Part shown: piece by piece, positions 43,601 through 64,000 of the stretch
Layout: each line of letters starts with the position of its first letter
How positions within the stretch are numbered: position 1 is the stretch's first letter
Source: Cerrena zonata
Lineage: Eukaryota; Basidiomycota; Agaricomycetes; Polyporales; Cerrenaceae
Direction: 5' to 3'
Assembly: GCA_038087015.1 (NCBI GenBank)
Contig: JASBNA010000011.1
Coordinates: 988,861-1,052,860, forward strand
DNA: 64,000 nucleotides
Notes under the pieces: generated by a model
What the model was told of the DNA's origin: nothing
The model's database searches: none
What the model saw: the letters and a program-made list of their open reading frames with translations, nothing else
Program-made: the position numbers and the translations under genes

Positions 43601-45819
43601 AGCTAGAAACCATAGCGATCCTCGAAGCCCTACTTAAGTGGGAAGACAAGTTGCTCGGACATCGAGTGAGTGTGGTCACCGACCACAAATCACTAGAGTT
43701 CTTCAAAACCCAGGGCAGGATGTCCCACCGTCAAACACGGTGGATGGAATTCTTGCAGCGATTCGATTACGAGATAACGTATGTGAAGGGAGAAGAGAAT
43801 GTGGTAGCAGACTGTCTGTCTCGCTACCATGAATCTGATTTGCCTTTGGAAATCCATCCAAGGCATTACTACGTTAACGCTGATGAGCGGTTAGACCCAG
43901 AAGGGGAAGCACTCCCCATCGGGAGAGCATTGGAACTGAGAGCGATGCGAGACGCGGAAATAGGCCGAGTGCCTAGGGAAGCGACGGAGGAACGGGAGAT
44001 TGAAGCAGAAGCCCTCTGCGATGCACAGGTACCGACTACGATACCTGTGCATCAGTCGAGTAACAGGGACCCTACCTGGGCAGAATCTCTCACCACTGGC
44101 GACCAGCTAGTGGAAGTTATGAGAGCAGACATCGAAATCGAGAGAGAGGCTAGAATCGGATATGTGAAAGACCGTGTACTCGCAAAGATTGTATCGAAGC
44201 CGCTGGAACACAAGTCGTTCACATTGAAGAACGGACTGCTGTACACCAAGAGCAGATCCGGAGAAGAGGTACTTTGTGTCCCCCACAGCAAGGTGGGACA
44301 CAGGTACCTCACCCAAGTGGTGATCGAGCATGGACACCAGACTCTGGGTCACCTGGGGTCGCAAAAAACAGAAGAATACATTCGCCGATGGTTCTGGTGG
44401 CCCAGGATAGGACTGGAGATTCGCAAGTACTGCGATAGCTGTGGGACATGCCAGACGATCAAGCCTAGCACACAGATACCGAGGGGACTGCTGCACTCCA
44501 TGCCCATCCCCACCAGACCATGGGGATCGATAGGAATGGACTTCGTGGGCCCGTTCCCGCCGAGCCAAGGATTCGACTACCTTTGGGTAGTGATTTGCCG
44601 ACTCACGTCCATGGTACATCTCGTACCAATGACGACAACGACTAAAGCGTCAGAACTGGCATGGATCTTCGTGAAAGAAATTGTCAGGCTTCATGGACTC
44701 CCCGATAACATCGTGTCCGATAGAGACTCCAAGTTTACATCCAAATTTTGGAAAGAAGTGCACCGGGTGCTGGGGGTGAAGCTATTGATGTCGACATCAT
44801 TCCACCCCCAGACCGACGGCGCATCGGAACGAGCAATCAAGACAGTGGGTCAAGTGTTGAGAGCGATGGTCAGCCCTGACCAACGGGACTGGGTGGAGAA
44901 AGTTCCATTGATGGAGTTCGCTCTGAACTCCTCCAAGAGCAACTCAACCACCTACGCCCCATTCGAGCTCAACGGTGGTATGCCAAGACTCGGGTTTGCT
45001 ACCACCGCCGGTCCGACGGCACCAGGGGTGGCCTCGTTCACCCAGCAAGTCCAAGACAATCTGCTATCGGCTCATGATGCGATCATTGAGAGTAGGGTGC
45101 TTCAAACATACTACGCTAACCAGCGCAGACGATCGGAGCACCCCAAAGGGGAGGAGGAGTCCTCATACGCCGAAGGTAACCTCGTGTACCTATCTACAAA
45201 AAACCTGGCACTTCCCAAAGGAAGGGCAAAGAAACTATTGCCAAAATTCCTGGGACCCTTCAAAATCGTGAAGGCTAACCAGGAAAAGTCCGCATACCAA
45301 CTCGATCTACCAGTGGAACTGAGGGCAAGGAAGATCTACCCCATGTTCCACGCTAGCTTGCTCAGACCATACATACCGAATGACGAGGAGCTATTCCCAA
45401 AACGAGAAGCGGCCAAGTTTTACGACTTCGGAATGCCGGACGAAACCGAATGGTTTGTCGACGATATCATTAGTCACCAGTGGACCGGTAGGACAATTAG
45501 GTTCCACGTCAAATGGAACCTAGGAGACACCACCTGGGAACCACTGGACGAATGCGATAAGCTACAAGCAATGGATCGTTACCTAGAGGTTATGGGGGTG
45601 CAACGATGGCAGGACCTGCCCCGACACCCTGAAACGGTGGATAAAGCGAGAGAGGTCCGCAGGGAACCTAATGCGACGGATCCTAGGATGGAACAACCGA
45701 CGAGGCAGGCTGGGAAGAGGGTGACCGACAAGGCCACCCCCCCAGCCCATATCGAACCAACCAGACACACGTCGAGTGGACGAGTGGTCAAGAGGAGGAA
45801 GCGAGCGGATGAAGATTGA
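37602..45819 (+). pseudogene. Gag-pol polyprotein frame of a chromovirus, interrupted
   Basis: One ancestral frame, now broken. Gag (37,602-39,230) opens MPTLTQKKQRK, is Pro/Gly/Asp-rich and stops at a TGA inside a block that otherwise continues (QLATDLGKFAGRM). The CCHC knuckle is CFNC...H...C at about 39,740, with six residues instead of four before the last Cys. A coiled-coil stretch follows. The 715-bp insertion then splits the frame just before the protease (LLDSGSSIDCV). TAG at 42,028-42,030 and TGA at 42,340-42,342 come next. From 42,475 the frame is open to 45,819: RT with YLDDIFVF at about 43,026, RNase H (VVCDASTHGVGAYY), the HHCC zinc finger, the integrase D-D-E (MDFVGP, SDRDSKFT, GASERAIK) and a chromodomain (EWFVDDIISHQW, RFHVKWNLGDTTWEPL). 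All catalytic residues I can see are kept, so decay looks recent. Confidence 0.85.
40873..41587. mobile_element. CACTG-ended nonautonomous element with long inverted repeats
   Basis: A 715-bp, very AT-rich insert. It begins CACTGGATCG and ends with the reverse complement CGATCCAGTG. The terminal inverted repeats extend about 250 bp with few mismatches (40,873 to about 41,135 against about 41,330-41,587), around a core of about 190 bp with no coding capacity. It is flanked on both sides by TGT (40,870-40,872 and 41,588-41,590). CACTA/G termini with a 3-bp target duplication are the hallmarks of the CACTA (CMC) DNA transposon superfamily; assignment to it is inference. Removing the insert plus one TGT puts gag and protease back in one frame. 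Confidence 0.8.
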
Positions 45820-46009
45820 GAGATTGCCTCCACGGCGGGAGCAAAGCAAGCGCTGAATTACTCAGCGCTCAGCGCTTGATACTCGGAGAGCCCCGGGCGG
45901 AAGCTAAACCTTGTACCAACTACTGGTACACGGCGCTTCCACCTTGGTCGATTCCTCCCACACCTGACACCGCCGCTTCACTTCCTATTCAATACTCAGC
46001 GTCATCATC

Positions 46010-47797
46010 ATGTCGGACAACAGGAAGCCGGGACCTTCCTCTCAGAATTCTCGGGGATCTGCTCGCTCACGTGGTGGCCACACTCGGGCATCTGCCCACG
46101 GCCACCGCTATGAGCCATACTCCAACCCTACCTCAGACCGTCACGATCACCACCACACTGGTGGTGGTGATCTTCGCTTACAACAAAATGATCCTCAGTG
46201 GGTGTGTAGACACCCGCTAGGATTCCACCATGACCGCGGCTGCGAGCAATGCGCTCTGCAGCGGCGGCATATCACGGACGCGATCCGCACTGACCCGGAA
46301 CTGGCCTCAAGGATCGCTCAAGCCAGCCTCGACGATCCTGAGACCCTACGCGTAGAAGTAGAGGACGCTCGGCGCAACTGGTCATTGTGCCAGGACGACC
46401 TCGACGATTGCGAGCGGGAGCTTGACCGCACTCATCGAGAAATCGAGCGAGTCCGGGAAGAACTCGATCAAGAACGTCGTCTGCGACAACGCCCTCCCGC
46501 CCCTGCTATGCTACCACAAGTGCACGATCGAGGGCGCAATCTCAGTGCGCCACAACAGACTATCGAACTGCTGCAACAGCAACTTCGAGAGGCGACAACG
46601 GCAAGGGACAACTATCGTCTCCATACCGAGGAGCTCGCCACTCAACTACTGCGACTTGGACACTCAGTGGTGGCCGCATCGGGATCCGATGCGTCCACCA
46701 CATTACCACGGCCTTTCTTCTCAATTTCGGATCCTGTCCCTGGTGGAGCACCGACATACGTGATTCCCCGCCAGGACACTGATGTCGAGATGGGCGACGC
46801 TAGCGAGGCGGCCCCGGTTCCGTATGCCACTCGCACATTTGTATTGGGAACCGATGGCACGCTGGTGAGGCAGCGGGCCGACATCTTCGACATGTCAAGC
46901 GATGAGGGCGAGACCATCGAATCCGACGAGTCTGAGGACTTTGACGACGATGGCGATATCGGGAGGCCCAAGGCACCAAAGAAGGCAAAGGGTAAAGTGG
47001 TCGCTAGTCGACCACCACTACCACAACAGCAAGCCCCTCCCGTTCTACCAGTTACACGTCCCTCTCGTCGACCGCCTACAGGTCCCCGAGTGGATAGGCA
47101 TAACTGGACGGCCCCACAGCCATCGTGGGACTCCAACCCTCTCCCCGCAGATCGAGCACGATGGGGGGATGAGTCCTCACTTGCTAGGGGCAGTGACATT
47201 GGTCCTGTTCCCTGGACTCACACGCCCGCCACAGTGGGATGGGGTGATCCCAGCCGTCCAATGTACCAACAAGGGTGGAGCGGTGTGGGCCACATTGGCC
47301 TACCACCGCCACCACCCCCTTCATCTCATTTTTCGGAAAGAGGGGGAAGGAACCAACCTCCTCCGCTACCACCAAGATTGGTTACCAGAAACCAACCTAT
47401 CTGGCACACCGAGTTCAACGGCGTAGCCTGGGTAGCTAGAAGAATCCCTCGGGAACCCATCGTGGCCAACCTCCACGGACAAGAGAGGTATGAACACGAG
47501 AGGACCCGAGGAGTAAACGCTCCTAGGCCGGCACTACAACCCGGTGAATTACCACCTGGATTCGTAGCTGCAAACGTAACAACTTCCGAGGTTCTGCGGA
47601 ACCTAATGGAAAGGGCGTCGGAACCCACCAACCCAGGTGCACGAGATGCGGTGGACATACTCGGCGACCTTAGAAACGTCGCTGGGAGAGCACCGCACCC
47701 TCGTCATGAACTAGAAGACATCGTCATGAACGAGTATATCGGGAAACCCGCGTGGGCAGGTGGTAAAGCCCACCTTAAGCAGAACAAGAAGGGTTAG
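46010..47797 (+). CDS. Coiled-coil ORF downstream of the retroelement
   Basis: Unrecognised frame of 595 residues beginning MSDNRKPGPSSQ. A His-rich N-terminus (HHHTGG) is followed by a short Cys/His segment (CRHPLGFHHDRGCEQC), then a coiled coil (DDLDDCERELDRTHREIERV, ELDQERRLRQR, IELLQQQLREA). An acidic patch (SSDEGETIESDESEDFDDDG), a Pro-rich middle and a conserved-looking end (RDAVDILGDLRNVAGRAPH, YIGKPAWAGG) follow. Placed 190 bp after pol on the same strand, it could be an accessory ORF of the element or a separate captured gene. The CX9HX5CX2C pattern may bind zinc (inference). The stop codon falls inside an internal telomere repeat, so the natural C-terminus may have been cut off. Confidence 0.5.
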   Translation: MSDNRKPGPSSQNSRGSARSRGGHTRASAHGHRYEPYSNPTSDRHDHHHTGGGDLRLQQNDPQWVCRHPLGFHHDRGCEQCALQRRHITDAIRTDPELASRIAQASLDDPETLRVEVEDARRNWSLCQDDLDDCERELDRTHREIERVREELDQERRLRQRPPAPAMLPQVHDRGRNLSAPQQTIELLQQQLREATTARDNYRLHTEELATQLLRLGHSVVAASGSDASTTLPRPFFSISDPVPGGAPTYVIPRQDTDVEMGDASEAAPVPYATRTFVLGTDGTLVRQRADIFDMSSDEGETIESDESEDFDDDGDIGRPKAPKKAKGKVVASRPPLPQQQAPPVLPVTRPSRRPPTGPRVDRHNWTAPQPSWDSNPLPADRARWGDESSLARGSDIGPVPWTHTPATVGWGDPSRPMYQQGWSGVGHIGLPPPPPPSSHFSERGGRNQPPPLPPRLVTRNQPIWHTEFNGVAWVARRIPREPIVANLHGQERYEHERTRGVNAPRPALQPGELPPGFVAANVTTSEVLRNLMERASEPTNPGARDAVDILGDLRNVAGRAPHPRHELEDIVMNEYIGKPAWAGGKAHLKQNKKG

Positions 47798-47807
47798 GGT
47801 TAGGTTA
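47791..47807 (+). repeat. Interstitial telomere repeat 1
   Basis: Short tract GGGTTAGGGTTAGGTTA in the same orientation as the chromosome end, with the same mix of TTAGGG and TTAGG units as the terminal array. It abuts the end of the ORF at 46,010-47,797 and marks the boundary between retroelement DNA and the subtelomere. Confidence 0.75.
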
Positions 47808-48290
47808 TGAGTGTTGTTCTTTCTCTCCTAGGGAGATCCTAGGGAGACCCTAGGGTTGGGCGCCTAGTGGGTAGGGCAGGGCGTGGAAGGGGCAAGGCGG
47901 GGTGGTAGAAAGTAGGTGGTTCAAAGGGTGTGAAAAATAGTGTGCTTTGACGGACAGTGTGTAAGAATAGTATGCGTCTTGGATGAACATTGTGAAGGGG
48001 GAAATAAGTGGTATGAAGGGCGGAAGAGGTGCAGGTGCAAAGTGTGCTGTAGAGAATGTGTGTAGACACCGAAATGTGCGTGTACAGAGGTATCTTAAAC
48101 AGTATATGGCATGTGAAAATGGCACGTGAAAAAGATACCTCTTTGGGAAAAGAGAGCGTTGTACGGAAGTGCGCAAGTATGCGTCCTAGACGCACACTTG
48201 CAGCATAGGCTTACAGAGAGGAACAGATCGTGTTGTAGGGAAGTGTGCAGGTGTGCGTCCAAGACGCATGCCGGCAGCATGTGCTTACAT

Positions 48291-48475
48291 TGCATCACAA
48301 CCGAACCATTTTGCCGCAGGTGCGAGCATTCGAGGGAGCTTGTGACCTGGCCATACATCTTCTCCCCAAACTTTGCACGTTCGTGCAATGTTTGGGACTG
48401 GGAGAAGATGTATGGTCAGGTCACAAGCTCCCTCGAATGCTCGCACCTGCGGCAAAATGGTTCAGTTGTGATGCA
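48291..48475. repeat. Near-perfect 185-bp hairpin
   Basis: Inverted repeat with arms of about 90 bases (48,291-48,382 and 48,384-48,475) and almost no loop. The arms differ at only a few positions (for example ccgaacc against ctgaacc, cctggcc against cctgacc). A transcript would fold into a long double-stranded stem. Confidence 0.85.
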
Positions 48476-48534
48476 ACGTGCACATTGGTAGCGGGCGTGC
48501 GTCTTAGACGCACACCTGCACACTTACTCGATAT

Positions 48535-48557
48535 CTTAGGGTTAGGGCTAGCTTAGG
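48535..48557 (+). repeat. Interstitial telomere repeat 2
   Basis: Degenerate tract of TTAGGG units (CTTAGGGTTAGGG, then GCTAGCTTAGGG), in the same orientation as the terminal telomere, between palindrome copies 3 and 4. Confidence 0.6.
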
Positions 48558-48957
48558 GTGACTATGGGGGGGGGATGCGTCCTGGACGCACGGGTGGTGA
48601 TACATGTTGACTAGAAGTGATGGACTGAAATATGGCTTAGTTTGGAAGTAGAGACGCTCACTATCATGAGGGGCGTGCACCGGTGTGCGTCCAGGACGCA
48701 TGTCTAAGAGACTTCTATGGCATTTGACATGCGGATCACTGTGAAGATGGCTAAGACTGCTTAGTACGGGATTAGCTGATGGCACGAAGTTCAAGCGATG
48801 GCTAGGTGGGTCTATTAGGGTTCTAATTGGTTATGATTGATGTCAGGCCCGCCTCTAAGATTATAAGCGAGTGATCGGAGCGGGAAGAAATTCGCTCATA
48901 AAGCAGAGACAATGCGGGGAAGGGCAGATCTCTCCTTCTCTCAACTCTCATCACTTA

Positions 48958-49004
48958 ACAACAGCAACAGCAGCAACAACAACATCAACAACAACAACAA
49001 CAAA
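48958..49004 (+). promoter_or_regulatory. CAA/CAG-rich 5' leader of helicase copy 1
   Basis: A run of about fifteen CAA, CAG and CAT triplets reaches directly to the start ATG at 49,005. CAA-rich, unstructured leaders favour ribosome scanning and strong initiation. The equivalent stretch before copy 2 (57,919) lacks it. Confidence 0.5.
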
Positions 49005-52000
49005 ATGCCTTCTCCTCCTATCGCCGTCGCTTTTCTGATGTTCACCGCAGATATGCGCCGCATCGTGGGCGTTGAGGATGCGCCTTGGTGCTGGCCTACG
49101 TGGCAGAGCCGTGTGAAGTCCCTAACAGCGCCTTGGGTAGAACCGGCTGAAGGTGCGACTCACATTTTTGGCTGGACTCAGAATCAGATTCGCGATGCCA
49201 AGGCGTATGTGGACGAGTTCTGCAAAAAGCCGGTGAGCCAACGTCTCACGTTTGCGCGCACGAAGGGGGACGACTATCACGAGGCGAGGGACCTCCTTCA
49301 AAGGTCATTGGTCAAGGCGTGGGACGAGACGTGGGGACTGCCTCATTTGATCCGGACAACTTTGACGGCGATGGGGAAGGGCCGGACAGCCCTCTTGTCT
49401 GAGCATGGAGATCGACAAGTAAGTGTCGAAACAAGGTCAATGTACAGGGGAGGCGCTGATAGCTTGTATGTAGCTGCCTCCGATCGAAATGGCCGATTTG
49501 ATGGCGGTCAAAGAGCACATCGCCTTTGAGCTCTTCAGGGCTGAGGGTATGAAGAAGAATTCTCGCAACAAACCGATAATCCAGGTCCTGGAGCTTATGA
49601 ATAATTGGTTCTATCAGATCTGGCGTGGAATTACGATGAAGGTCAAGCGGGACCGGGCTGCCATGGAAAAGCTGGAGGTAGAGACAGCGGCATTGCTTAA
49701 AAGTAAGTAATGTGTTAAATACATTAATTAGGCTACTAATGACATGGTATACAGAGTTTGAAGGGGAGGGTCGTAACCCAGCGACATTCAGGGCGTACCT
49801 CAAGAAGTCTAAAATGTTGATGAGGTACTATCAGGACTTTGGCGACAAACCCAGCATTGAGGCGATCGAGGAGCACCGCACGAAATTGGACAACATTCGG
49901 AAGGCGTTGGCAATGAAGGAGGACGGGACGGCCGAGGAGGACATTAGTGAGTAGTGTTGTCAGAATGAGAGAACACACCTAATGTAACATATGCTTAGAA
50001 CTGAGTAGTGCTTTGCGAGCGTCTTTGGTGTGGTTGAGCACCCAGGCTCAACATGATTCAATCTCGGATGAGGTCTGCGAGCAGATTCACTCGCTGGCGA
50101 ACGACGAGTTCGAGTTGCCTGCACTTGACCTGGCATCGGTGAGCCTGAATGAATGGGAAAGCGGCGTCGAGGCATGGGAGAAGTTGCAGGTGTCGGAGCT
50201 CTATCGTTACTTGGGCCTGGATGAGGAGAAGCCTCTCCCGTTCTTCAACAAGTACATTGACTTGGCGGATAGCCGGGATGCATGGGCCCATCCTGCACTT
50301 GTGGAGGCGGATGAAGGGAACCCTAACCGAATTCTATTGCGTCCTCACTGGCATCAATTGGTGGGTATGTGTAAGATGTTGGACTGTCTGTTCGATGGGA
50401 AACCGGTGCTTCTAATGGATGGGGTGGGGTTGGGTAAGACGTTACAAGTTGTTGGGGTGATTGCGATCCTTGCGTATTATCAGACGGTGAAGAAGGAGAA
50501 GGGGGTATTCCCTGGGGCATTTGGTAAGTTAAAATGACTTTGTATTGAGAACCTACTGACATAGGTACTTTTCATAGCAGAGCGATTGTTCCAAGAGGGG
50601 GATAATATCCCGGAGCTGCCATCGATGATTGTGGTGCCACCGTCCCTGCGTCAGCAGGTTGAGACCGAGCTGCATCGGTATCTTACTCGGGGAGTGTTCG
50701 ATATCATGCTCTATGAGGGCACGGTAGTGAGCAGGAGTGGGTACTGGGAGCATACATGGGATCGGTCCGTTCTGAACGAATGTCACCGAATTCTCCTTGC
50801 TACTGCACCGGTGAGTGTTGGGACCGACTGTGAGATTATGGGTGGTGGGCTGACAGAATAATGCAGGCTATCACCAGCGATGGCTCCAATGCCTTGGTTT
50901 ACAACACATTAAGCCCCCACATTCCCCCGACTAGGACTGGTATGTTGATGGACACTATCTACCAGAAGGATTGGCTGCTGGCGGTTGTTTACGAGATGCA
51001 CTGTGCGCGGAACATGAGTCGTACTTTCTGGTCTGTTTGGGGTCTGCAGATCCAGAGTCGGGGAGTGATTGGAATGACAGCGACACCAGTGATGTCGAAA
51101 ATCCGGGTAAGTCAAAGTGATGTTGTAGCGAGAGTATGGATCGACTGATAGGGGATATTTAGGATCTGTGGCACATTGGCCGAATGTTGGGTATCGACGG
51201 GTTTGACGAGCAAGATGAGTATGTGGAGATGAACAAGGAATCGAGTCGTGCATTACGTGCCGATCGACGAGTGCGGGAGGTGAACATCGAGGCCTTTGTG
51301 CATGGAGAAGCTGATGGCAATGCGGTTGGAAATGTCGACGAGGTGAATCTGAAGTGGATGAGGAAGATGCGGAGGTTGTTCCAGGGATACATCGTGCGAC
51401 GGAGCGAGGAGTCACGAAACTGCGACGGGAAGCCACTCATGGACTTGAAGCAATACCAGCTTGTGATCCTGGAGCTTGAGCTCTCAGGTCGGGAGAAGGA
51501 GGAGGTTGAGGCTCGACTTGCTGGGCTAGGTGATCTGCACACTGCACGAGCAGATGGGGAGGTAAGTGAAATGTCTATTGGGCGATGCGATCAAAGGCAT
51601 GCATCCTGGACGCACACCACACCCCCACCTACGCGCGCCTTCCACGAGTAGGTGGGTGCCCAGCGTGCGTCCAGGACGCATGCCTTCCTGACATGGCTAC
51701 TATGCCTTGGTCAATATGACCGTGTGCCCGGTGTGCGTCCAGGACGCACACCTTCCTGACACGGTCACGTTGCCTTGGTCAATATGGCCGTGTGCCCGGT
51801 GTGCGTCCAGGACGCATATAATCAATCGCAGTGGGGTGTATGCTAATTATTTTGTAGGCCTTCTACCTTGGTATCAGGCGAGCTGTTGTCCATCCAGATT
51901 TCTTCACCACTCGCGAAAACCAGCTTCGCTTTGACACGCTCGAGGACTGGCAGAGCAACTCGTCGACCAAGCTCGATGTCATGGCTAAAGTGGTGCAGTG

Positions 52001-53543
52001 GCACCTCACCATGGACAAACGTTCCCCAATGAAGACCGTCGATGGCGTGCTCGTCGATGGGGATGCTACTCTGCTTGACAACCCTGACGGTCTCCCTTGA
52101 GACAAAATCGTCGTCTTCTCGATGATGGTGGTCAACACGCGGATAATATCTCAAGTAAGTTTGCTCTCAAATTACTAGCTCCTTGCTGATATATCGGTCA
52201 GGTCCTCAACGTGCATGGTATCAAGCATGTTTCTATCCATGGGTCTCTCTCTCTCGCAAAGCGGACTGCTCTGATCGAGCAATTTAAAGCGAGTGACGAA
52301 AACGGTCCACGTGTGCTCATCATCTCGTCGGTAGGAACAACGGGGCTCAACTTGGCTTGGGCAAATATCTTGCTTTGTATCGTAAGTATATTCCCCTGTC
52401 TACATGGATGCGGAGCTAAAGTGTCCATATCTTTAGGATGTTCCCTGGTCGTGGCAGGAACTGGGACAGATGATCGGTCGTCTGTGGCGATTGCCGCAGA
52501 AGAAAGAGGTGATCGTGTACTAGCTCGTCGCTCTTGGTACGGCGGATGTCTTCCTCAGCGATAACTCATTTGGCAAGGGCCGGATGTTGGAGGCATTCCA
52601 AAAAGCGAGTCCCAAGCTCCTGGCATTGCTGGGCGGCGAGGATCAAGAACCGCTTGGGAACGAAGACGACGATTCGGAAGACGACGTCGAGGATACTTCT
52701 ACGGCGAAGAAGAAAGGCAAGGGTAAGAGCCAGCCAAAGAAGGCGACGAGGACGAAGAAGGGCTCTTCAGTAGTGTCCAGCGTTGACAAAGGAGAAGGAT
52801 CGTCGGCCATGACGAAAGCACCGGTCCCCCGCCCCAGGAAGAAGACCACTGTCGTCAACAAACCAGAGGGATCGGCTACAGCTCAAGCCTCCACTCTGGC
52901 TGAAGCATCGACTACAGAGCAAGCACCGGTTCCCTCTCTGTCTGCCAAAGGGAAGGGCAAAGAGAAAGCGCGCGAGACTGAGGAGGACGAGGAGGATGAG
53001 GAGGATGAAGAAGAGGACCAGCCCCCAGCGGCGACTCACACTGGATCGGAGGTGCAGGCTGGACAAGCGTCCCCTCAGCATCAACAGGAGCAGTCTCAGC
53101 GAGAGGAGGATCAGGATGGGGGTGTGCCTCAGGCTGAACAACCTGGACAAGCAGCGTCTCGTTCTGAGCGTGAGGATGAACCTGCCCCTTCCCCTTCTGA
53201 ACCTCTTTCTTCCTCCCCTTCTTCAGAGGACGTCAATATGCAATCCCCGTCTCCGCCACCAGCACCTCGTGCTCCCTTATCAACGTCAAGCAGTAAGTAG
53301 TGGCTTAACATTTATGTCATTTACCACTAACAAACAATGTTTTAGCTCGGAGCAATGGGCGTGTGGCCAGGGCTACTAGCAAGAACGTCAGATATCACGA
53401 GAGCAGTGAGTCCGACGTCCCTATGGCTCGCAGTAAGTGTGTGTATATGTCAACGGTATGTATTTATTAATATAAAAGCAACAGAGCGTAGCCGAGGTCA
53501 GGGTAGGGGCCGCGCTGGACCAAAGGGTCGGGGCCGCCGTTGA
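49005..53543 (+). pseudogene. SNF2-type subtelomeric helicase, copy 1 (decaying)
   Basis: Paralog of the gene at 57,919-61,951, same strand, about eleven exons. Block order is the same: WCWPTWQSRV, FGWTQNQIRDAKAYVDEFC, MRYYQDFGDKPS, LRPHWHQLVGMCKML, Walker A DGVGLGKTLQ at about 50,418-50,447, ATPVMSK, MRRLFQGYIVRR, and a C-terminal lobe with GTTGLNLAWANILL and GRLWRLPQ. Three defects: the DEVH box reads YEMH (TAC at 50,990-50,992), TGA at 52,098-52,100 replaces the Cys of copy 2, and TAG at 52,521-52,523 replaces Gln. A long Lys/Glu/Ser tail ends in a GR-rich RSRGQGRGRAGPKGRGRR. The intron at 51,562-51,857 (296 bp) holds four palindromes. Most introns are otherwise intact, so loss is recent. 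Fungal subtelomeric helicases are usually RecQ-like; this one has SNF2 motifs. Confidence 0.8.
51562..51857. repeat. Palindrome cluster B inside a helicase intron (four copies)
   Basis: A 296-bp intron of helicase copy 1 with palindromes at 51597-51617, 51663-51683, 51731-51751 and 51799-51819, spaced 66-68 bp. The last two or three units also share their spacers (cttcctgaca, ttgccttggtcaatat), so this part is a minisatellite of about 67 bp built on the palindrome. Confidence 0.85.
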
Positions 53544-53659
53544 ACTCCTCCGCCTTTTTTTCGTACATTGTTGGAACCAGGACACTCGTCGGAAATTGTG
53601 CATCATGCATAGTTTCCATATCATTTGTAAGTAGCTACACTACGTAGTCTACTCGTATC

Positions 53660-53870
53660 TACTCGGACGTTGTTGATGATTTTCGGACATCTTTGCTTTA
53701 TTGACGACTTTCGGACGTTTTTGCTTTTGCCTTATTGACGGCTTTCGGACGTTTTTGTTTACTTTCGCACTTTCGGACATCTCTGCGTATTCACGGCTTC
53801 CAGACGTTTTTGATGATTTTCGGACATCTCTGCTTATTCACGACTTTCGGACGTCTTTACTTTCTGCTCA
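53660..53870 (+). repeat. Degenerate minisatellite with a TTTCGGAC core
   Basis: About seven imperfect repeats of 28-40 bases, each built on ACTTTCGGACGTTTTTG or ATTTTCGGACATCT, followed by GCTTATTGACG-like sequence. It follows helicase copy 1. No gene is supported between 53,544 and 54,170. Confidence 0.6.
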
Positions 53871-54175
53871 CTATGCGATCCCTTTCTATGCTTATCTTTT
53901 TGTTACTTCCTATGCTTTGCGCACAATTCTCTTTCGCCGGTCTCACATTTTCATAAGATTCAGATGTTGTTACTTTCATGTTGTTCAAGCTGGTCTTAGG
54001 ACGTTACATATGCAAGTACAAAAAGTACAAATTGATGATTAGTTATATGCCTTCAAGATGTGTAGAGTTGCTGTCGCTGATGAAGAGGTACATGAGAGAG
54101 ATACAGCGAGGACTACAGTCCAATACAATAATCAAATTATAATGGCTACCATACACCAGATAAGTGCGGTGAGCG

Positions 54176-54323
54176 GTGTGCGTCCAGGACGCACACCTGT
54201 AGACAGGATAGGATTGAGATCATATAAATTTATGATGTCACTAAGTCTTCATTTGTAGCGGAGGTTTTCTGAGAGTTGCAGATGATACGTGGTGTGGGGT
54301 GGGTATGCGTCCAAGACGCACAG
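54176..54323. repeat. Palindrome cluster C (two copies)
   Basis: Copies at 54176-54196 (perfect) and 54303-54323 (CAAGA centre and one end change), on the 3' side of the minus-strand gene at 54,486. Confidence 0.85.
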
Positions 54324-54485
54324 GTGTCGTTATCGTCTGTGTATCATTTGCAAGTATATTTGTGAGTATAATTTCCAAAAGACTGACCACTCGGCAACCA
54401 ACCACATGCATATTCCGCAATCTCAGAGTCACGCAAAAAGAAGCAGAGGGATTTGCGATATTGAAAGCATAGATGTACAACAGGT

Positions 54486-55300
54486 TTACGTATACAAAAC
54501 TACATTATTGTCAATGTCTTGAGCCCAGATCCAGACCAGCAGCTCGACGATATCAGGGCGCAGCCTGTCATATACCCACCTCAAGTGAGCGCTGCTACTC
54601 AGCACCTCAGCCAATAGTGAGTCCACTCCAGACACCTCACGCATCATCCGTGTGGCCTCAAGCTCGAGAGCTGAGGCGAATTTGGCAGTCGCGAGAACTG
54701 CAGCGTAGTACAGGGCAAGAGACCTGTTACGCTCAGCGGTCTGGATGCCGCCAAAGTTCCGCTCTCGCAATGCTACCCAGTACCGTCTCCATCGCTCTAC
54801 TCGTTCTACGACGTGCTGGGCTGCTTCGATGCAGAGCCGCAGGAAACTAGCGTGAGCCACTATTATGATGAGGCAGTTAGAATGTCAATTGCGATAGAAG
54901 ATAGAGATATACTAAGTGCTGGAGGGCGCAAGTCGCCCAAATGTCTGGCTTCCTGAGTGTAATAGACGTTTCCTGAAGTACTGTTAGTGTGTAAACTAAT
55001 ACGTTAGGGTAAGAACATACCTATGAGGTTGGGCATTACCCTCCTGAAAGCAAAGGCCTCCTCGAGGCGTTGGATCCTTCCATTGTCTGCACAAATGAAT
55101 AATTGTATAGGGCGAGTTTATCATGAGGCACTTACGTTGGAGAGTGGCGCCTTCCTCCACGATGAGGAGGAAATTGCCATGATCTCGGGCAAGGCATACG
55201 TTGTACACCAATGCCGGGCCCCATTGAACCCGGGCCGGAGTCTGGTATATATGAATCAGACGATCGTCGACAATACGCAGGTGCGACTTACAGTGTAGTT
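54486..55300 (-). CDS. Unknown subtelomeric protein, left paralog
   Basis: Unrecognised multi-exon gene. The last exon (54,860-54,486) encodes an alpha-helical domain: AHASFLRLCIEAAQHVVERV, RWRRYWVALRERNFGGIQ, AERNRSLALYYAAVLATAKF, ending DNNVVLYT. It aligns along its length with the last exon of the right-hand gene (AHAAYFKLMHEAGTNMLERV, DFAGVRRQEKNRAYLL). Upstream exons include VYNVCLARDHGNFLLIVEE at about 55,205-55,145 and a segment DNGRIQRLEEAFAFRRV at about 55,090-55,040 that matches DGAWSRLEGTFTLWRRI of the right paralog. The 5' end is uncertain. The exon pattern suggests a long-standing duplication. Function unknown. Confidence 0.5.
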
Positions 55301-55422
55301 GGTGACCAAGGGCAGAGCCCTGCATTCCTCGACGGTGGTTGGGTGTTGCATACTTGAAGCAGGGATATGATGAGAGGTGGGATGTGGAGGAGGTAAAATA
55401 CGGTATTAGGGATCCCACCCAC

Positions 55423-56412
55423 CGTGTCTCAAATATATCTTTTGTGGTTGTAAACTTACCATTGAGCTGGTCAAGGGCTCATTTCATTATTGCGCAGGCC
55501 TCGATGCGTGTTGGTAAGCCTATGATCAATGAGTTATGAGTTCTAAGCTCTCCGTGAGTCAGGAAACGTACGGTCATCAGGGTATTTGGGTCGAAGAATC
55601 CCGCTCGGGAGCCAAGTGGGGCTTCTAACTCTCGGGACCGTGCAAATTAGACTTTTGAGTGACTCCAATATGAAATGATGTTTGGCATAATTGAATACGT
55701 TCGGGAAGAAGTGTGATTGGATAAGGCCGAGACCGCGGGCTAGACAGAGGTCCGCATTTAGCCGAATGTCCGCCGTGGGGCAGGTGTGCGTCCAGGACGC
55801 ACACCGCTCCCTGGTCCACTTGAATTTCTCGCAGATAGGGATCTGTGTGCCGCTGTGCGTCCTGGACGGATACCCGCCTGCACAGTACTATGTACCGATA
55901 CCTCCTGAGCTGATCTGCACCCCGCTGTGCGTCCAGGACGCACATCGGCACACAGATCCCTATCTGCGAGAAATTCAAGTGGACCAGGGAGCGGTGTGCG
56001 TCCTGGACGCACACCTGCCCCACGGCGGACATTCGGCTAAATGCGGACCTCTGTCTAGCCCGCGGTCTCGGCCTTATCCAATCACACTTCTTCCCGAACG
56101 TATTCAATTATGCCAAACATCATTTCATATTGGAGTCACTCAAAAGTCTAATTTGCACGGTCCCGAGAGTTAGAAGCCCCACTTGGCTCCCGAGCGGGAT
56201 TCTTCGACCCAAATACCCTGATGACCGTACGTTTCCTGACTCACGGAGAGCTTAGAACTCATAACTCATTGATTATAATCCAGTCGTGGCCTACCAACGC
56301 GCATCGAGGCCCACGCACTAAGGGCTCCTTAGTCTTGTCCGCAGGCTAGTCGAGATCAGCCCCTAACCAGCGCAATGGAAAGTTTACAACCACCAGAGAT
56401 ATATTTGAGACA
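55423..56412. repeat. Large inverted repeat between divergent paralogs
   Basis: Two arms centred at 55,899. Inner parts 55,500-55,873 and 55,925-56,300 are near-perfect reverse complements around a 51-bp spacer; outer parts out to about 55,423 and 56,412 match with indels. The arms contain no gene of their own: reading frames on the two strands are copies of each other. They separate the 5' sides of two divergent paralogous genes. Confidence 0.85.
55784..56014. repeat. Palindrome cluster D (four copies, mirror-symmetric)
   Basis: Copies at 55784-55804, 55853-55873 (one base broken, CGGATAC end), 55925-55945 and 55994-56014. The first and fourth, and the second and third, are mirror images about the centre of the large inverted repeat. 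Confidence 0.85.
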
Positions 56413-56437
56413 GTGAGCAGTGTGTCGGCTTCAACTC

Positions 56438-57305
56438 ATGGAGCCTCCCTCAACAATCGATGAGTGTTACAGCTGCCCGCTTTTGTCCTATTACCCGGTA
56501 AGCAGCACCCATCATTCTCAGACGTGCATCCTACTGAACAGCTATCAGGCACCAGATGAAGCAGTGCTTGGGGACTACCACACTGGCTTTATGGTGTGCT
56601 ATCGCCATGTGTCTGACAGGCCTTGTGATCGAGTTATCGAATTCGAGGAAAGTATATGTATTATGAGTATGTTTCAATTGCATCTGATTTACCTATTCAG
56701 GCTAACGGTTGATCGATGATCTCTCACAGAAGATGGTGCCTGGTCTAGGTTGGAAGGCACCTTTACTCTTTGGAGGCGCATCGACCATGCCACAGGCGAG
56801 TCCTGTTTACTCAATAATCAAGTCTCATGTACTTATACTACGCTTAGCGAGGCAACGATACACCGATAGAGAAGCCGTAAGTTCTGACGATCCGCGTACC
56901 CCGGGACGAGGTATGTTTTTGTAACTATCTCCTTTGCCGGGAGGTGACTTTGCTCCAGTTGCACATGCAGCTTATTTCAAGCTCATGCATGAGGCGGGGA
57001 CAAATATGCTCGAGCGTGTACTCAAGTGGAAGGAGATCTGGAACCAGTGGGAAGCAGCCGACTTCGCCGGGGTTCGGAGGCAGGAGAAAAACAGGGCCTA
57101 CCTCCTGTTTGACGCAAGCCTAGTCACCGCAGAGGCATATAGCGAGTTCCTCTTCAAGCAGGAGGACAAATGGAACCCAAAATACAGTGGGCTGGCCTCG
57201 GTGCTCGCCGACCTCACTGAGTTGGCCACTCGCCTCGTCTCAACGAGGGACGATCTCCTTGATTTGCGCGATCAGTGCAAGGCACATGTCCTCGCTCACA
57301 ACTAG
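56438..57305 (+). CDS. Unknown subtelomeric protein, right paralog
   Basis: Unrecognised gene transcribed toward the telomere, with its start just outside the large inverted repeat. Model: MEPPSTIDECYSCPLLSYYP, intron, APDEAVLGDYHTGFMVCYRH to FEESICIM, intron, DGAWSRLEGTFTLWRRIDHA to SEATIHR, a short exon around DDPRTPGRG, and a last exon (about 56,940-57,305) with helices HAAYFKLMHEAGTNMLERV, KWKEIWNQWEAADFAGVRR, YLLFDASLVTAEAYSEFLF and the end KAHVLAHN. The last exon is homologous to that of the left paralog. The helical domain has no motif I recognise. Exon edges in the middle are uncertain. Confidence 0.5.
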
Positions 57306-57918
57306 TTTGGTAGTCCTGTAACTATGTCTTGCCGTATGTCTCTCTTACGAGACTTTCTCAATATAATTGTAGCCGTTGTCTAAGATATATAGACCGAGTG
57401 TTATGCTGCTAAGCCTAAGAGATCACGCCGACATATCAATGCACTCTGTTTAGGAACATACGATCTTCCATCAGGAACATTGTGGTCCGATATTGAAACT
57501 GATGTGTACAAGGTACGGTTGCTAGGGTTCAGCAGCTTAAGCCGCATGGAACAGCCAATACCCCATATTAGGTGCACCCGTTGTTCTCCGTCCATGTGCT
57601 CGATATGCAGATGGCACCGTACACCGGTGTGCGTCTTGGACGCACATCACGCACATCTTGGTAATATCATAACATTATCTGCAACCACGCAGGACGGGGA
57701 AATATTCAGGATATCCTGTCCCTGATGCTAGTTCAGGACGCGAAGGTGGCAAAACAATATCTCTTCTTTGAGAAGCAAGTCATTGGGCATCCGCTAAGTG
57801 GTGCAAACAATTTGGCACTCGCTTGTCCGATCCTAGGCAATCCCTTAAAAGCTCGTGTAAATCATGACCATACAAATATTCTCCACACATCCTTTCCGAC
57901 GCTGTCAACGTGTCTGCT
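57306..57918. other. Intergenic with palindrome E
   Basis: Contains a single palindrome at 57627-57647 (TTTGG-like centre, CGTCTTGGACG) and no supported gene. It holds the promoter of helicase copy 2. Confidence 0.5.
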
Positions 57919-60900
57919 ATGCCTACCTTCAGCTATGGATCAAGCTTGCTTAATATCACTGCTGAATTCAGGCAACGCACTGTCTCTGTAAATACTCCCG
58001 TTGATCCTAACGCACCCTGGTCATGGCCCACCTGGCAAAAACGTACAGGGTTTGCTGAACCCCCTTGGGAAGCTGTCCCTCCTACCCAGAAACATCCCTT
58101 TGGCTGGACAGAGCGAGAATGCAGTCTGGTCAAATGTTACGTTGACTCATTCTGCAAGATCCGTACACGTTCAGAACGCCTGGAGTTCAGCAGAGCTAAA
58201 GGTGATAACACCGCCGAAGGCAGAAAACTTTACAACCAAGCGATCAACCTCTCCTTCAACGGGAAATGGAAACTCGTGGACGCTATGCATCGCTGTTTTC
58301 GGGACTCCAAAAAAACCTTCGAGTCCATACTTGCAGATCACGGTAGTCGCAACGTACGTTCGAATCCTGCATCATCATCGGATGCACACTCATACCCTCA
58401 TCAGCTACCTGAGATATTCGAAGAAGACCTTGGTGAGGTCAAGGACCTGATCGCGGACAGCATATTTGGGGAGAGCGGCAAGAAGCCCGGATCGTCTAAA
58501 TCTACCCCCGAGGTCAGGAAAGCTATTGATTATTGGGTATCGAACTTATGGCATGCCATGACCTCCAAATACCGTCGTGATGGCGTCAATATGGACAAGC
58601 TTGCGATTGAGGTCGCCGAGACTCTGCATAGTGTGTATACAATCCTACACATCTCCTTGTTATGTTGTATTTGTTATTGATCATCTGGTTCTGTAGAATT
58701 CGAAACCACGGATCGCAACATGGCAACATTGCATCTCTTTCTGCAGAAAAGTGGCAGATTGATGCAGTATTATCGGCAATTCGGTGATATTGAATCTCAG
58801 GCGCAGATTCATGAGTATCGCGATAAGCTCACAGACATACGCCTCGCCCTCTCGATTGATATGCAAGGCAAAACAATCCACAGTACGTACATGTTTGTCA
58901 CATCATCTTTCTCACATCTGACAGTTGTCGTTGTAACAGAGATAAGCCCCGCACTTCGGCAATCTCTGATGTTGTTAAGCAAACAAGAAGATGTCGATCG
59001 TATGGATGCTGAGATCGCGGAGGAGATTATCAATCTCTCCAAAGACTCGGTTGACATTCCCGTCTTGACACTCGACAGCATCGACTTGAAGGACTGGGAA
59101 AGTGGAGTGGAGAAATATCAGACCATGAATTCGGAGGCGATCTGTGCCCTTTTAGGTATCTCTCCCGATGGGACTCTCCCTCACTTTAACAACTACATTG
59201 ATGCTGTCGGTATCCGCGATCCCTGGATTGATGATTCCCTTCACAATGAAGCACTCGATGACCCCGATCAGAAGCTTCTCCGTCCACATTGGCACCAGCT
59301 CGTAGGCATGCTTAAGATGCTGGACAGTACTTTTGCCGGAGGACCCATCCTCCTGATGGATGGTGTGGGTCTTGGCAAGACGTTGCAAGTCATCGGCATA
59401 ATTGCACTTCTGGCATACTACCGCAAAACTAAACAGGATACCGGTCAATTTCCCGGCATATTCAGTGTGTTTTTTTTGTTCAGTTACTGTGCCTAAGCTG
59501 ATGGAGCTATCTTGTTCAACAGAGGGTAAAAAGTTCCAGGAACATGACAACATTCCTGATGAGGCCTGTTTGCTGGTGGTCCCCCTGTCATTGAGGGCGC
59601 AGGTCGAAGTTGAACTTCATCGGTATCTGAAACGCGGAAGCTTCGATGTGTTGCTGTATGACCGAGGGGCGCTGAAGATGCCAGATTACTGGCACACGAC
59701 CTTCCACATGTCTAAGCATGCACCCAGCCACCGTATCGTGTTGGCCACTATGACGGTAAGCTTTTTTGGCCAGATCTCCACAGATATCATCCATCTGACC
59801 ATGTGAACCCAAGGCACTGACCAGCGATGCAATTAATTGCCTGCAGTATGCATCCACAAGCCCAAATAATGCTCCCAAGGTCATTGAGAACTGTAGTCCA
59901 ACTCTCTTGACGCGGAAATGGCTCTTTACGGCCGTGGACGAGGTGCATAATGCACGCAACGTTGGTCAGAGCTACTGGGCAGTCTGGGGCTTGCGACAAT
60001 GTAGCCGCGGCTTTGTGGGCATGTCGGCAACTCCTGTCCTCACCCGTCCCCACGTAAGCACCCTTTACTTGACCATCGTTGACTGTATATATGCTGATTA
60101 TGCTGATAACGCTGATGACAGGATCTTTATCATATTGGTCGCTTCATGGAGATCAAGGGATTCGATAACGCATTGGACTACCAGACGATGATCCGTGACA
60201 TGACCAAAGCGAGTCGGTTGGATCGTAACGAGCGGGACGAACGTGGCGTCTGGAACGTGGACTTCTTCCGTGGGCAGGAGGAAGCCAACATCCCGGATCA
60301 CGTCGCCCGGTACAGTATGCATTGGATGAACAAGATGCGAGCGATGTTCGAAGGCCACATTATTCGCAGGGACTCCAACTCAGTGACGTACAACGGCAAG
60401 TCGATTATCGACATTAAACCTTACAAGTATGTTGCTCTGGAGCTAGCGTTGACGCCCACTGAGCAAGACGGGCTGGACGAAATCACGACAGCATTTGAGA
60501 AGAAGAGCAGCAACAAACGAACCGAAGGCCAGGTATGTTATGATTTGTCATCTCCATATCTGAGTCGAGCATCGGTGTGCAGGAGCAGGTGTGCGTCCTG
60601 GACGCATACCTGCTGCTGCCCCCGTGATACGAAAGAGACAGCAACTTCTGTGTGCTCTCTGCACTCGGTGTGCGTCCTGGACGCACACCTGCTGCTGCCC
60701 CACACGATACATCGAGGTCTGTGTGCCCTCTCGTGTCCGTCAGGCCTCTGCGCCCGATGTGCGTCCAGGACGCACAGTATTCTTATTCTCTTGCTTCTGC
60801 TCATCTCCTAATCAACAGCACTTCTACCTCGCTTTCCGCAGACGGTGCCTGCATCCCAACTTGCACACCGGGCGTGAGACAACCCTCGCCTTCAATACGC

Positions 60901-61951
60901 TAGGAGATTGGGAGGCTAACCCTTCCACCAAACTCGCCGCCCTTGTGCGCGTCCTCACCTATCATCTCAAATCTGACGCTCGCAGCCCCATGACCACAGT
61001 TGACGGCGAACTCGTAGATGGACCGGATGAGCCTCTCACTACAGAGGATAACCTACCGTGTGACAAGATTGTGGTCTACTCAGCCTTTGTCATTAACACA
61101 AGGTATATCAAGCAAGTAAGTGCTGCTTCGTACTCTCACCGGTCTATCGAGCAGTCCTCATCCCGGTGTAGGTCTTAAATGTCCACGAGATCCAGTATCT
61201 GTCGATCGACGGTGGAATGACTGTTGCAAGACGCACCAAGGTTATTCACCAGTTCCGTACTAGCGGGGTGGACGGTCCTCGCGTGCTCCTCGTTTCCATC
61301 GTTGGCACTACAGGACTAAATTTACCATTCGCCAATATCCTCGTGTCTTTGGTATGCATTCCTTTCCTCTTGTGATCGCGCGCTGACATTGATCGGCAGG
61401 ACGTCAACTGGTCTGAACAAGATGAGAACCAGCTGCGCGGTCGTTTGTGGCGCCAGAACCAGCCCAAGACTGTAGTCTTTTACCAACTCGTTGCCCGCGG
61501 TACCTCCGATGTCTTTCTCAACAACATTGCCTTCGGCAAAGGCGTGATGCTCAAAGCTTTTGTATCAGCCCCCAAAGGGCTTCAGAAGTGGTTCCATCCA
61601 GATTACATTGAGGACAACCTGCAGAAAGACGACTTTGATTACGCGCTAGCCAAGGATAACGATAAGGACGAGGATGAAGATGAGACCCCAAAGACCAAGA
61701 GAAAGAGGAAGGCCAAAGCGAAGAAAGCAGCTCAAATATGCGAGGATCAAGACAACACTCAGGCTTCGAAGAGCAAGAAGAAAACCAAAGCGAAGGCTAG
61801 TCCCACATCAACTGAGACAGCCGAGTCTTCAACAAATGTGTCGACTGAGGCCCAAACAGCGACAGCTGATCCTTCCCAGTCCAAAAATAAGGGTAAGCGG
61901 ACCACACCAGCGCCACGCAAGAAAATCACCTATGTTTCTTATCCCCCGTAG
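57919..61951 (+). CDS. SNF2-type subtelomeric helicase, copy 2 (intact)
   Basis: Predicted SNF2-family ATPase of about 1,100 residues, the last gene before the telomere and pointing to it. About ten exons; first exon 57919-58353 opens MPTFSYGSSLLN. An N-terminal family-specific region (WSWPTWQKRTG, FGWTERECSLVKCYVDSFC, LMQYYRQFGDIES) precedes the ATPase core: HWHQLVGMLKML, Walker A DGVGLGKTLQ (59,358-59,387), LLVVPLSLRAQVE, DEVH (59,937-59,948), GMSATPVL, GHIIRR, then lobe 2 with DKIVVYSAFVINTRY, GTTGLNLPFANILV and the arginine motif QLRGRLWRQNQPK. The tail is Lys/Ala/Ser-rich. All catalytic motifs are present. Intron 60,533-60,818 (286 bp) holds three palindromes. Fungal telomere-linked helicases are thought to act in end maintenance or spread by recombination; the same role here is inference. 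Confidence 0.85.
60533..60818. repeat. Palindrome cluster F inside a helicase intron (three copies)
   Basis: A 286-bp intron of helicase copy 2 with palindromes at 60589-60609, 60668-60688 and 60757-60777, spaced 79 and 89 bp. Spacers share CTGCTGCTGCCCC. This is the same intron position as in helicase copy 1 (both resume at (H/A)FYL). Confidence 0.85.
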
Positions 61952-61966
61952 TGAGGGCTGACTACG

Positions 61967-62030
61967 GACGACTCCAGGGCAAACGACTCCAGAACGACTC
62001 CAGAACGACTCCAGAAACGACTCCAGCAAT
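61967..62030 (+). repeat. ACGACTCCAGA tandem repeat
   Basis: Five to six units of about 10-12 bases (ACGACTCCAGA with small changes), starting 16 bases after the helicase stop codon. Confidence 0.8.
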
Positions 62031-63838
62031 GACTTTAGGCCAAAGTTGATGCAGCAACTTCCAGAATTTCATGAAAATATCAGGCAAAGTTGATGCAGCA
62101 ACTTCAGTTCAGTGTCAAATGGAAAGAGTTACTGTAATCAATATCAATCTAATATGAAACAACTGAAGTTGATTCAACATATATCAAACTGGAAAAGATA
62201 ATTACTGTTATATTTTTGATATCAGAAAAAAGTTGCTGCAACAACTTTCCAAAAGAACATTAAAAATGTCACATTTAGTAGAGATATAAAGTATATTATA
62301 TTAGAATATATTAACCAGAGTCAAAATGAAAGTCATAAGTGATTGCTACAATTATATTTTGAATAGCAAAAATAAGTTGCTGCAATAATGTTTCAAGTAA
62401 CTTTGCAAGTGAACATTGAAAATATTATAATGAGTAAAGATATAGAAAGAGATATATTGTGTTGAGATCCAGTAATCTGAATGAACACCAAAGAAATAAA
62501 GAATAAGATAGCAATGACAAAAAGTAATGATAACAAATATTGAATATCAAAGTCAAGTCAAGAATTAGATAAAAATGTCAGACAAAGTTAATAGAGCAAC
62601 TTTGATAAAGTATCAAATGAAAATAGTTACTGTAGCAAATATGAATTGAATATGGAATAACTGAAATAAATATAAGGTATCATATATCAAAGTGGAAAAG
62701 ATAATTATTGCAATATTTCAAGTAACTTTGCAAGTAAAGATTGAAAATATTACAATCAGTAGAGATATAAAGTGAAGCATATGATACTACAATCTACTAA
62801 CTAGAATCAAAGTGAAAGTGATAAGTGATTGCTATGATTATATTTGTAATACCAAAAATAAGTTGCTGCAACAACTTTTCAAGTGAAGATATAAAAAGAG
62901 AATATGTTGTGATAAGATTTAGTAATCCAAATGAAGGTCAAAGAGATAAAGATTAAGATAACAACAATAAAAAGTAATAGTAATATCAAAGTCAGGTCAA
63001 GTACAAGTTGCAATTAATATAATATATATCAAAGATAGTAGCAATAAATATGAAAGTATTATTGAAAATTGATATAACAGATTTTGATAAGTAGTAACTG
63101 TGAGTGAAGATAATGATTAGTAAGATTGAGTAAAGAAATAGTTCAACAATAAAGTGAAATAAAGTAGATGTAAGTATAAGTTGACATAAAAAATAATATG
63201 ACATAGATTGAAAGATAGAAATATATATCAAGTGAATATAAAAATAAGATAAGTGTATAAGAATATGAGATGAGAACATAGCAATAATAATATTAGAATG
63301 ATATAGAAATTATGAGAGAATAATAGAAATAGTGACAACAATAGTTATTGAGATATAATATTGCAGGTAAGCAGATATGAATATTTTAACAGAATTAGTT
63401 GAGAGATGGTTGAAATAAATAAAGGTAGAGGTAAAAGTAAAGTAGAAATAAGACAAAGGTAGAGATAGATAGGAAGAATATAGTAGAAGTTGAGATTCAA
63501 GTGGAACATAAGAAATAAGATTGAAGTAGGCAGGTAAAGTCAGAGGAAGTAGTTAGTAGAATAATATAGAGAAGGAATTAGAAAGAAATATTAGAAGCAA
63601 TAATAGAATTGAAGTTGGAAAATATATAGAAAGAAGGAAAGTATGAAGTAGAAGCAAAGAGTGAAGATGCAATAATGGAAGAGAGATAATATAGTTAATG
63701 TTAGATGTGGAAAGAGATTAATAGTTAATTGGTTAAATAAAATAAGATGTAATTTAGATAATAGGATAGGTTAAGTAGGCATAGGTAGGATTTAAGAGGG
63801 AAAATAATAGAAAGGAGTTAAATATTTTAATTATTGGT
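62031..63838. repeat. AT-rich subtelomeric repeat DNA
   Basis: About 1.8 kb without a gene. The first kilobase is made of long degenerate repeats: the 62,090-62,480 stretch recurs at about 62,570-62,960 (agttactgtaa, ctggaaaagataattactg). It carries several near-palindromes of the type AAGTTGCTGCAACAACTT (62,232, 62,371 and 62,861 regions) or AAGTTGATGCAGCAACTT (62,044 and 62,087). From about 63,000 the plus strand is strongly purine-rich with very few C. Confidence 0.7.
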
Positions 63839-63888
63839 TCATAACCCGGTCAGGGTTAGGGAGGAGGAGAAAACCTAACGAAGCGAGC

Positions 63889-64000
63889 TTAGGTTAGGTT
63901 AGGGTTAGGGTTAGGTTAGGTTAGGGTTAGGGTTAGGTTAGGGTTAGGGTTAGGTTAGGGTTAGGGTTAGGTTAGGGTTAGGGTTAGGGTTAGGGTTAGG
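63889..64000 (+). repeat. Telomere
   Basis: Terminal array of TTAGGG mixed with TTAGG units, running off the window. The inner part follows a 5-6-6 base rhythm (17-bp period); the last four or five units are pure TTAGGG. It shows that this is a right chromosome end with the G-rich strand 5' to 3'. A single isolated CAGGGTTAGGG sits just inside at about 63,850. Confidence 0.97.

Follow-up and report, generated by a model that had tools for sequence, protein, structure and literature searches.

At the end of contig C11 of the white-rot fungus Cerrena zonata, a 64,000-nucleotide stretch (988861-1052860, referred to here as the window; the assembly comprises 55.5 Mb in 171 contigs) contains many copies of a 21-bp palindrome, GTGTGCGTCCWGGACGCACAC, all of them inside a 14.1-kb subtelomeric block that carries two SNF2-type helicase genes. 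The core of the palindrome is kept in unlike sequence contexts, its placed copies are confined to subtelomeric regions, copies lie upstream of the helicase genes and in their introns, and sites and the spacers between them have been inverted in place between copies of the block. The reading that we favour, tentatively and with rather less than even confidence, is that the palindrome is a putative binding site for a dimeric protein, specific to this type of block, and at the same time a hotspot for template switching.

Distribution of the palindrome

Allowing up to three mismatches, 18 matches to GTGTGCGTCCWGGACGCACAC were found in the window, the first starting at 48177 and the last ending at 60777, against none in 100 shuffles of the window. 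A nineteenth copy, at 48573, needs four mismatches and a twentieth, at 47970, needs five; before 47970 the window has no copy at up to five mismatches. The count made in the first-pass annotation, nineteen copies between 48.18 and 60.78 kb and none in the first 47.8 kb, is reproduced at a limit of four mismatches, and its remarks that several copies are perfect over 21 bp and that most have a CCWGG centre hold for five and for 14 of the nineteen, respectively. Some window copies are products of local duplication: those at 51663, 51731 and 51799; those at 60589 and 60668; and those within 55784-56014, which belong to a large inverted repeat. The spacer between adjacent palindromes measures 45-58 bp in 11 of 18 distinct sequences (class R dropped).

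Across the genome 247 places match the palindrome and none match its mirror control, and most of this count is due to duplication of the block at many contig ends. The exact 15-bp core, TGCGTCCWGGACGCA, occurs 157 times. All of the 154 cores that were placed (139 in the terminal stretches compared and 15 more on C88, C92, C93, C129 and C141) lie no more than about 41 kb from a contig end, distances being measured to contig ends, which are not always telomeres. This upholds for the whole assembly the subtelomeric confinement proposed from the window, and an ordinary transcription factor site used genome-wide is ruled out by the absence of any placed exact core outside the terminal regions. Among the contigs that bear the palindrome, C11, C35, C51, C57 and C141 alone have a telomere array, while the telomere-bearing contigs C18, C20, C97, C111 and C136 have no palindrome among the matches listed, so that the palindrome marks one type of block and not every chromosome end. 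A search of viral contigs with the exact pattern gave no match, and literature searches on dispersed and subtelomeric palindromes, on telomere helicases and on the genome of Cerrena zonata listed no description of the palindrome. A known structured RNA is likewise ruled out, there being no Rfam match at gathering score within 47700-61950.

Conservation of the core in unlike contexts

When duplication is discounted, 29 palindrome contexts remain: 20 from the window, four from C5, three from C35 and two of the six on C141, the other four near-identical C141 palindromes having been dropped. In this set, whose members are not all independent, inner-arm positions (2-7 outward from the centre) deviate in 5 of 348 cases and outer-arm positions (8-10) in 41 of 174 (p about 2e-16, subject to that dependence), and the positions of the CpG core are changed in only 3 of 116. 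Each base of the core carries about 2 bits of information, falling to background some 12 bases from the centre, and most flanks are unrelated among contexts, which agrees with the earlier proposal that the palindrome is itself the conserved element. Decay of a single ancestral tandem repeat is ruled out by the uneven deviations and the mostly unrelated spacers. Limits of three mismatches could bias the count of core conservation; a scan that allowed three mismatches in the core found no further decayed copies in 14 sequence sets. Lone half-sites are at background level, with one TGCGTCC in the block outside the palindromes. Transitions account for 35 of the 41 outer deviations, compared with 49 of 100 non-CpG noncoding changes in the block; part of the excess may stem from old CpGs at positions 8-9.

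The 21-mer is predicted to fold into a hairpin of -9.5 kcal/mol, which none of 200 shuffles equalled. Arm positions changed on both sides in a matched way number three, where 4.7 would be expected from shuffled arms (P 0.90), and the idea that compensatory changes keep the symmetry is not borne out. As there is no excess of such changes, it is the letters and not the pairing that appear to be kept; selection on base pairing alone is ruled out on the same ground. A dyad whose core is more conserved than its edges is the pattern of a dimeric protein-binding site. It is tempting to suggest that a homodimeric DNA-binding protein would bind the two TGCGTCC half-sites, and that this binding would take effect at the promoters of the block's helicase-like genes and within one of their introns, with a role in their expression or silencing.

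Placement around the helicase genes

The proteins of genes 1 and 2 are 44% identical, and both match the Pfam models for the SNF2-related domain and Helicase_C, with ERCC3_RAD25_C also given; neither is of the RecQ type. With exon borders set by hand, none of 19 window sites overlaps an exon. Five palindromes and one degenerate copy lie upstream of gene 1 and one lies upstream of gene 2, while gene 3, on C35, has four upstream, the nearest about 258 bases from the ATG. The long introns of genes 1 and 2 (Table 1) occupy the same position in the protein, and what similarity there is between them consists of the palindromes with a few flanking bases and, beyond these, three 8-base matches. When the gene 2 protein was searched for in six frames, each of the 108 matches obtained fell on a contig that carries the block (34 of 259 candidates scored). 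The window copy of gene 1 (49006-53540) has two in-frame stops where the family member P0003 has residues, and on that account may be inactive.

Inversion in place and gain or loss of units

Copies of the block differ from one another by inversions in place. Spacer F is inverted in two of 11 blocks, spacer J together with both its flanking palindromes in one of ten, the palindrome at 60589 in two blocks as against five (C37 has an extra base), and the inner three bases of the palindrome at 48251 in one of ten. Swaps of the central A and T between blocks, at 51731 and at 55784/55994, may be flips or plain substitutions. Whole units also vary: C8 and the first C93 block are without two of the four palindromes in the gene 1 intron, and six of ten blocks have unit I in duplicate. 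C57 looks poorly polished beyond about its 18.2-kb point, and its spacer R was ignored. An unbiased scan for inversion in place returned 24 rows, which group into seven candidates with at least three changed bases; four of these are at palindromes or palindrome-bounded spacers, and one is in the loop of a large hairpin between two palindromes, where blocks vary by inversion at 48372-48389.

These observations lend support to the hairpin or cruciform put forward in the first-pass annotation, beside the dimeric site that we favour and with which the data are compatible. Since each site is a near-perfect hairpin, replication might switch template there, and such switching, in preference to some other route, would flip sites in place, invert the spacers between them, and add or remove array units. 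Spacer J lies between arms of 362 bp, so ordinary recombination between the arms explains its inversion equally well.

Lost units, inverted spacers and junctions inside palindromes might also be expected of crossover sites for a site-specific recombinase encoded by the element, the spacers then forming a small shuffling system. We consider this very improbable. Single sites flip alone, and that at 48251 in C51 in its inner bases only, which a two-site recombinase would not bring about, and no recombinase domain was found in the block proteins scanned, which cover part of the block's frames.

It has also to be asked whether the palindrome is mobile, the nuclear equivalent of GC clusters in mitochondria or of REP elements in bacteria, which some enzyme would copy to new places. 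The same palindrome does occur with an abrupt edge in many unlike contexts, in introns as well as intergenic DNA, and a similar dispersal of yeast GC clusters is described in PMC4478555. Against this, orthologous places in up to 11 blocks differ by gain or loss of whole array units alone, with no filled site seen opposite an empty one; target duplication was not consistently seen by eye in the printed flanks; and no placed core lies outside the terminal regions. Mobility of this kind is unlikely, and the insertion preference suggested at first pass loses its footing with the lack of filled and empty sites.

A 2354-bp stretch containing an array of six palindromes is present in C141 (L025, 3691-6046) and absent from C35 (L015). 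It has the 3-base repeat CCT at its edges, and insertion and microhomology-mediated deletion fit equally well.

Variation among blocks and the case for a functionless hairpin

The closest competitor, which ranks close behind the dimeric-site reading and which we regard as a real possibility, is that the palindrome is a functionless hairpin: an ordinary subtelomeric repeat, recently spread in the block by local duplication and recombination, a mere hotspot of rearrangement that looks kept because it is young. The blocks are only about 1% apart, local duplications and inversions at palindromes are many, and no constraint is detectable between blocks. What such a hairpin accommodates poorly is that divergence has reached its outer positions but spared the core, whose CpGs are hypermutable, that there is no tail of decayed copies, and that arrays occupy the same intron of two genes whose introns are otherwise unshared.

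Several results weigh against a protein-binding site. Polymorphism was counted in seven blocks, the partial sequences of C92, C93, C16 and C146 being left out. Palindromes vary at 20 of 376 sites and distant noncoding DNA at 93 of 4838 (p 1.3e-4), so that the palindromes are the more variable; from nearby noncoding DNA (67 of 1939) they do not differ significantly (p 0.10), and exons vary at 123 of 6747 sites. At CpGs within the palindromes the rate of change is that usual for the block (8 of 78 sites, against 64 of 637 in noncoding DNA). Non-CpG sites of the palindromes vary at 12 of 298, against 96 of 6139; flips explain nine of these twelve, and when the nine are removed 3 of 298 vary. There is no clear sign of purifying selection within blocks at this time scale. 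Moreover, a general transcription factor would not usually have its sites confined to the subtelomere, some of the 29 contexts are related duplicates, and two of the seven inversion candidates lie neither at the palindromes nor in the loops of the large hairpins, at 56256-56258 in an arm of the inverted duplication and at 59736-59738 in a poorly polished contig. With recent change ordinary or raised, the argument for constraint depends on the longer-term comparison of contexts and on where the sites are placed.

Noncoding CpGs in general show differences between blocks at about six times the frequency of other noncoding sites (64 of 637, against 96 of 6139). Most of these differences are confined to a single block, and the pattern is the one expected if CpGs are methylated.

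Table 1. Features of the terminal part of the window
Feature	Position	Strand	Basis
Interstitial telomere repeats, centromere-side edge of block	47790..47807	+	Sequence; telomere-like repeat family; junction compared at 13 block starts
14.1-kb subtelomeric block common to many contig ends	47803..61930	+	BLAST of contig ends; pairwise divergence
Degenerate palindrome, 5 mismatches	47970..47990	.	Mismatch search
Palindrome upstream of gene 1	48177..48197	.	Mismatch search
Large hairpin with arms of 126 bp (89% complementary) and a loop of 33 nt; a palindrome lies near either outer end	48241..48525	.	Repeat analysis
Palindrome upstream of gene 1; inner CAA is TTG in C51 (partial flip in place)	48251..48271	.	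Mismatch search; block comparison
Palindrome upstream of gene 1	48495..48515	.	Mismatch search
Palindrome upstream of gene 1, 4 mismatches	48573..48593	.	Mismatch search
Palindrome 208 bases before gene 1 ATG	48683..48703	.	Mismatch search; distance count
Gene 1, SNF2-type helicase-like protein, P0003 family	48912..53540	+	Reading frames; Pfam; P0003 alignment
Gene 1 long intron, about 295 bp (other eight 49-68), four palindromes	51564..51858	+	Set by hand from reading frames and P0003
Palindrome, gene 1 intron	51597..51617	.	Mismatch search
Spacer F; C11 (window) and C51 carry it inverted compared with 9 other blocks	51618..51662	.	Block comparison
Palindrome, gene 1 intron	51663..51683	.	Mismatch search
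Perfect palindrome, gene 1 intron; central base is A in C11 and C51 and T in another 7 blocks	51731..51751	.	Block comparison
Palindrome, gene 1 intron	51799..51819	.	Mismatch search
Perfect palindrome between genes	54176..54196	.	Mismatch search
Palindrome between genes	54303..54323	.	Mismatch search
Inverted duplication with main arms of 362 bp (98% complementary) and a loop of 33 nt; four palindromes around axis	55425..56412	.	Repeat analysis; BLAST
Perfect palindrome in inverted duplication	55784..55804	.	Mismatch search
Palindrome in inverted duplication	55853..55873	.	Mismatch search
Spacer J; one block of 10 (C92) has it inverted along with the palindrome on either side	55874..55924	.	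Block comparison
Palindrome in inverted duplication	55925..55945	.	Mismatch search
Perfect palindrome in inverted duplication	55994..56014	.	Mismatch search
Palindrome 271 bases before gene 2 ATG	57627..57647	.	Mismatch search; distance count
Gene 2, SNF2-type helicase-like protein, P0001 family; window copy cut short at block edge	57919..61930	+	BLAST; Pfam
Gene 2 long intron, 286 bp (other eight 45-68), three palindromes	60533..60818	+	Intron comparison
Palindrome, gene 2 long intron; three marker bases show it reversed in place in C11 and C51 compared with C5, C8, C35, C57, C146	60589..60609	.	Block comparison
Perfect palindrome, gene 2 intron	60668..60688	.	Mismatch search
Palindrome, gene 2 intron	60757..60777	.	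Mismatch search
Terminal telomere array, mixed TTAGGG and TTAGG, end of C11	63892..64000	+	Sequence

The subtelomeric block and its edges

Pairwise divergence among block copies ranges from 0.19 to 1.84%. The 13 block starts compared (C5, C8, C11, C16, C22, C35, C37, C38, C50, C51, C57 and two in C93) fall at the same base of the block (TATGAGTGTTG; 47790-47810 in the window), while the chromosome sequence that adjoins them differs; telomere-like bases stand immediately before the start in eight, AGG alone in four, and none in one. From the shared start base, the differing chromosomal sequence beside it and the telomere-like bases before most starts, the block looks as if it had become attached to former chromosome ends. 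At the other edge, an AT-rich, purine-skewed module starting TATGTTTCTTATCCCCCGTAG (61931-63890 in the window; near 106.9 kb in C93 and near the start of C35) caps blocks at differing cut points, 61930 in C11 and about 54052 in the first C93 block. At the end of C51 (L022) a shortened block runs, after a T-run, straight into the telomere array, as in telomere healing. Upstream of the block are a Ty3-type retrotransposon frame (42343-45813; reverse transcriptase, RNase H, integrase and a Tf2-1-like SH3 domain) and an open frame at 45968-47791, with no Pfam match, that reaches the telomere repeats at the block edge.

Comparison with known systems and implications

Yeast Y' elements and fungal telomere-linked helicases are near-identical terminal blocks with helicase genes beside telomere repeats. 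The Cerrena block resembles them in being terminal and nearly identical between ends, in encoding helicases, and in adjoining telomere repeats (on the five array-bearing contigs named above; the other ends have no array in the assembly). Fungal telomere-linked helicases are of the RecQ type, whereas the models matched by its proteins are SNF2-related and Helicase_C. It also carries the palindrome at many points, and no such palindrome is known in Y' elements. RecQ genes near Ganoderma telomeres are reported in PMC10817607.

In yeast, inverted repeats with arms of at least 10 bp show spacer inversions, some of them recurrent (PMC8604942). The Saccharomyces repeats, described there as sites of template switching, share with the Cerrena palindrome arms of about 10 bp, a short centre, inversion in place of repeat or spacer, and both orientations segregating. 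They are, however, scattered chance repeats in genes, whereas the Cerrena palindrome is one repeated sequence and shows no excess homogenisation of its arms, as the count of matched changes given above indicates. Mitochondrial GC clusters (PMC4478555) are likewise short GC-rich hairpins dispersed between genes; unlike them, the Cerrena palindrome is nuclear, belongs to one type of block, and is not seen as filled and empty sites.

A bolder form of the binding-site reading is that the block is a self-contained chromosome-end element, whose own SNF2-type proteins, or a partner that it carries, bind the palindromes, the pair of site and protein controlling expression, silencing or copying to other ends. 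We rate this as unlikely; if true, a telomeric element of a nuclear genome would have a system of cis-acting sites all its own. Should the palindrome prove to be a binding site private to the subtelomere, it would offer a direct handle on the control of a telomere-linked gene family and on the spread of the block between chromosome ends. Even if it is functionless, the many copies of one hairpin, with both orientations preserved, would make hairpin-driven inversion in a nuclear genome measurable.

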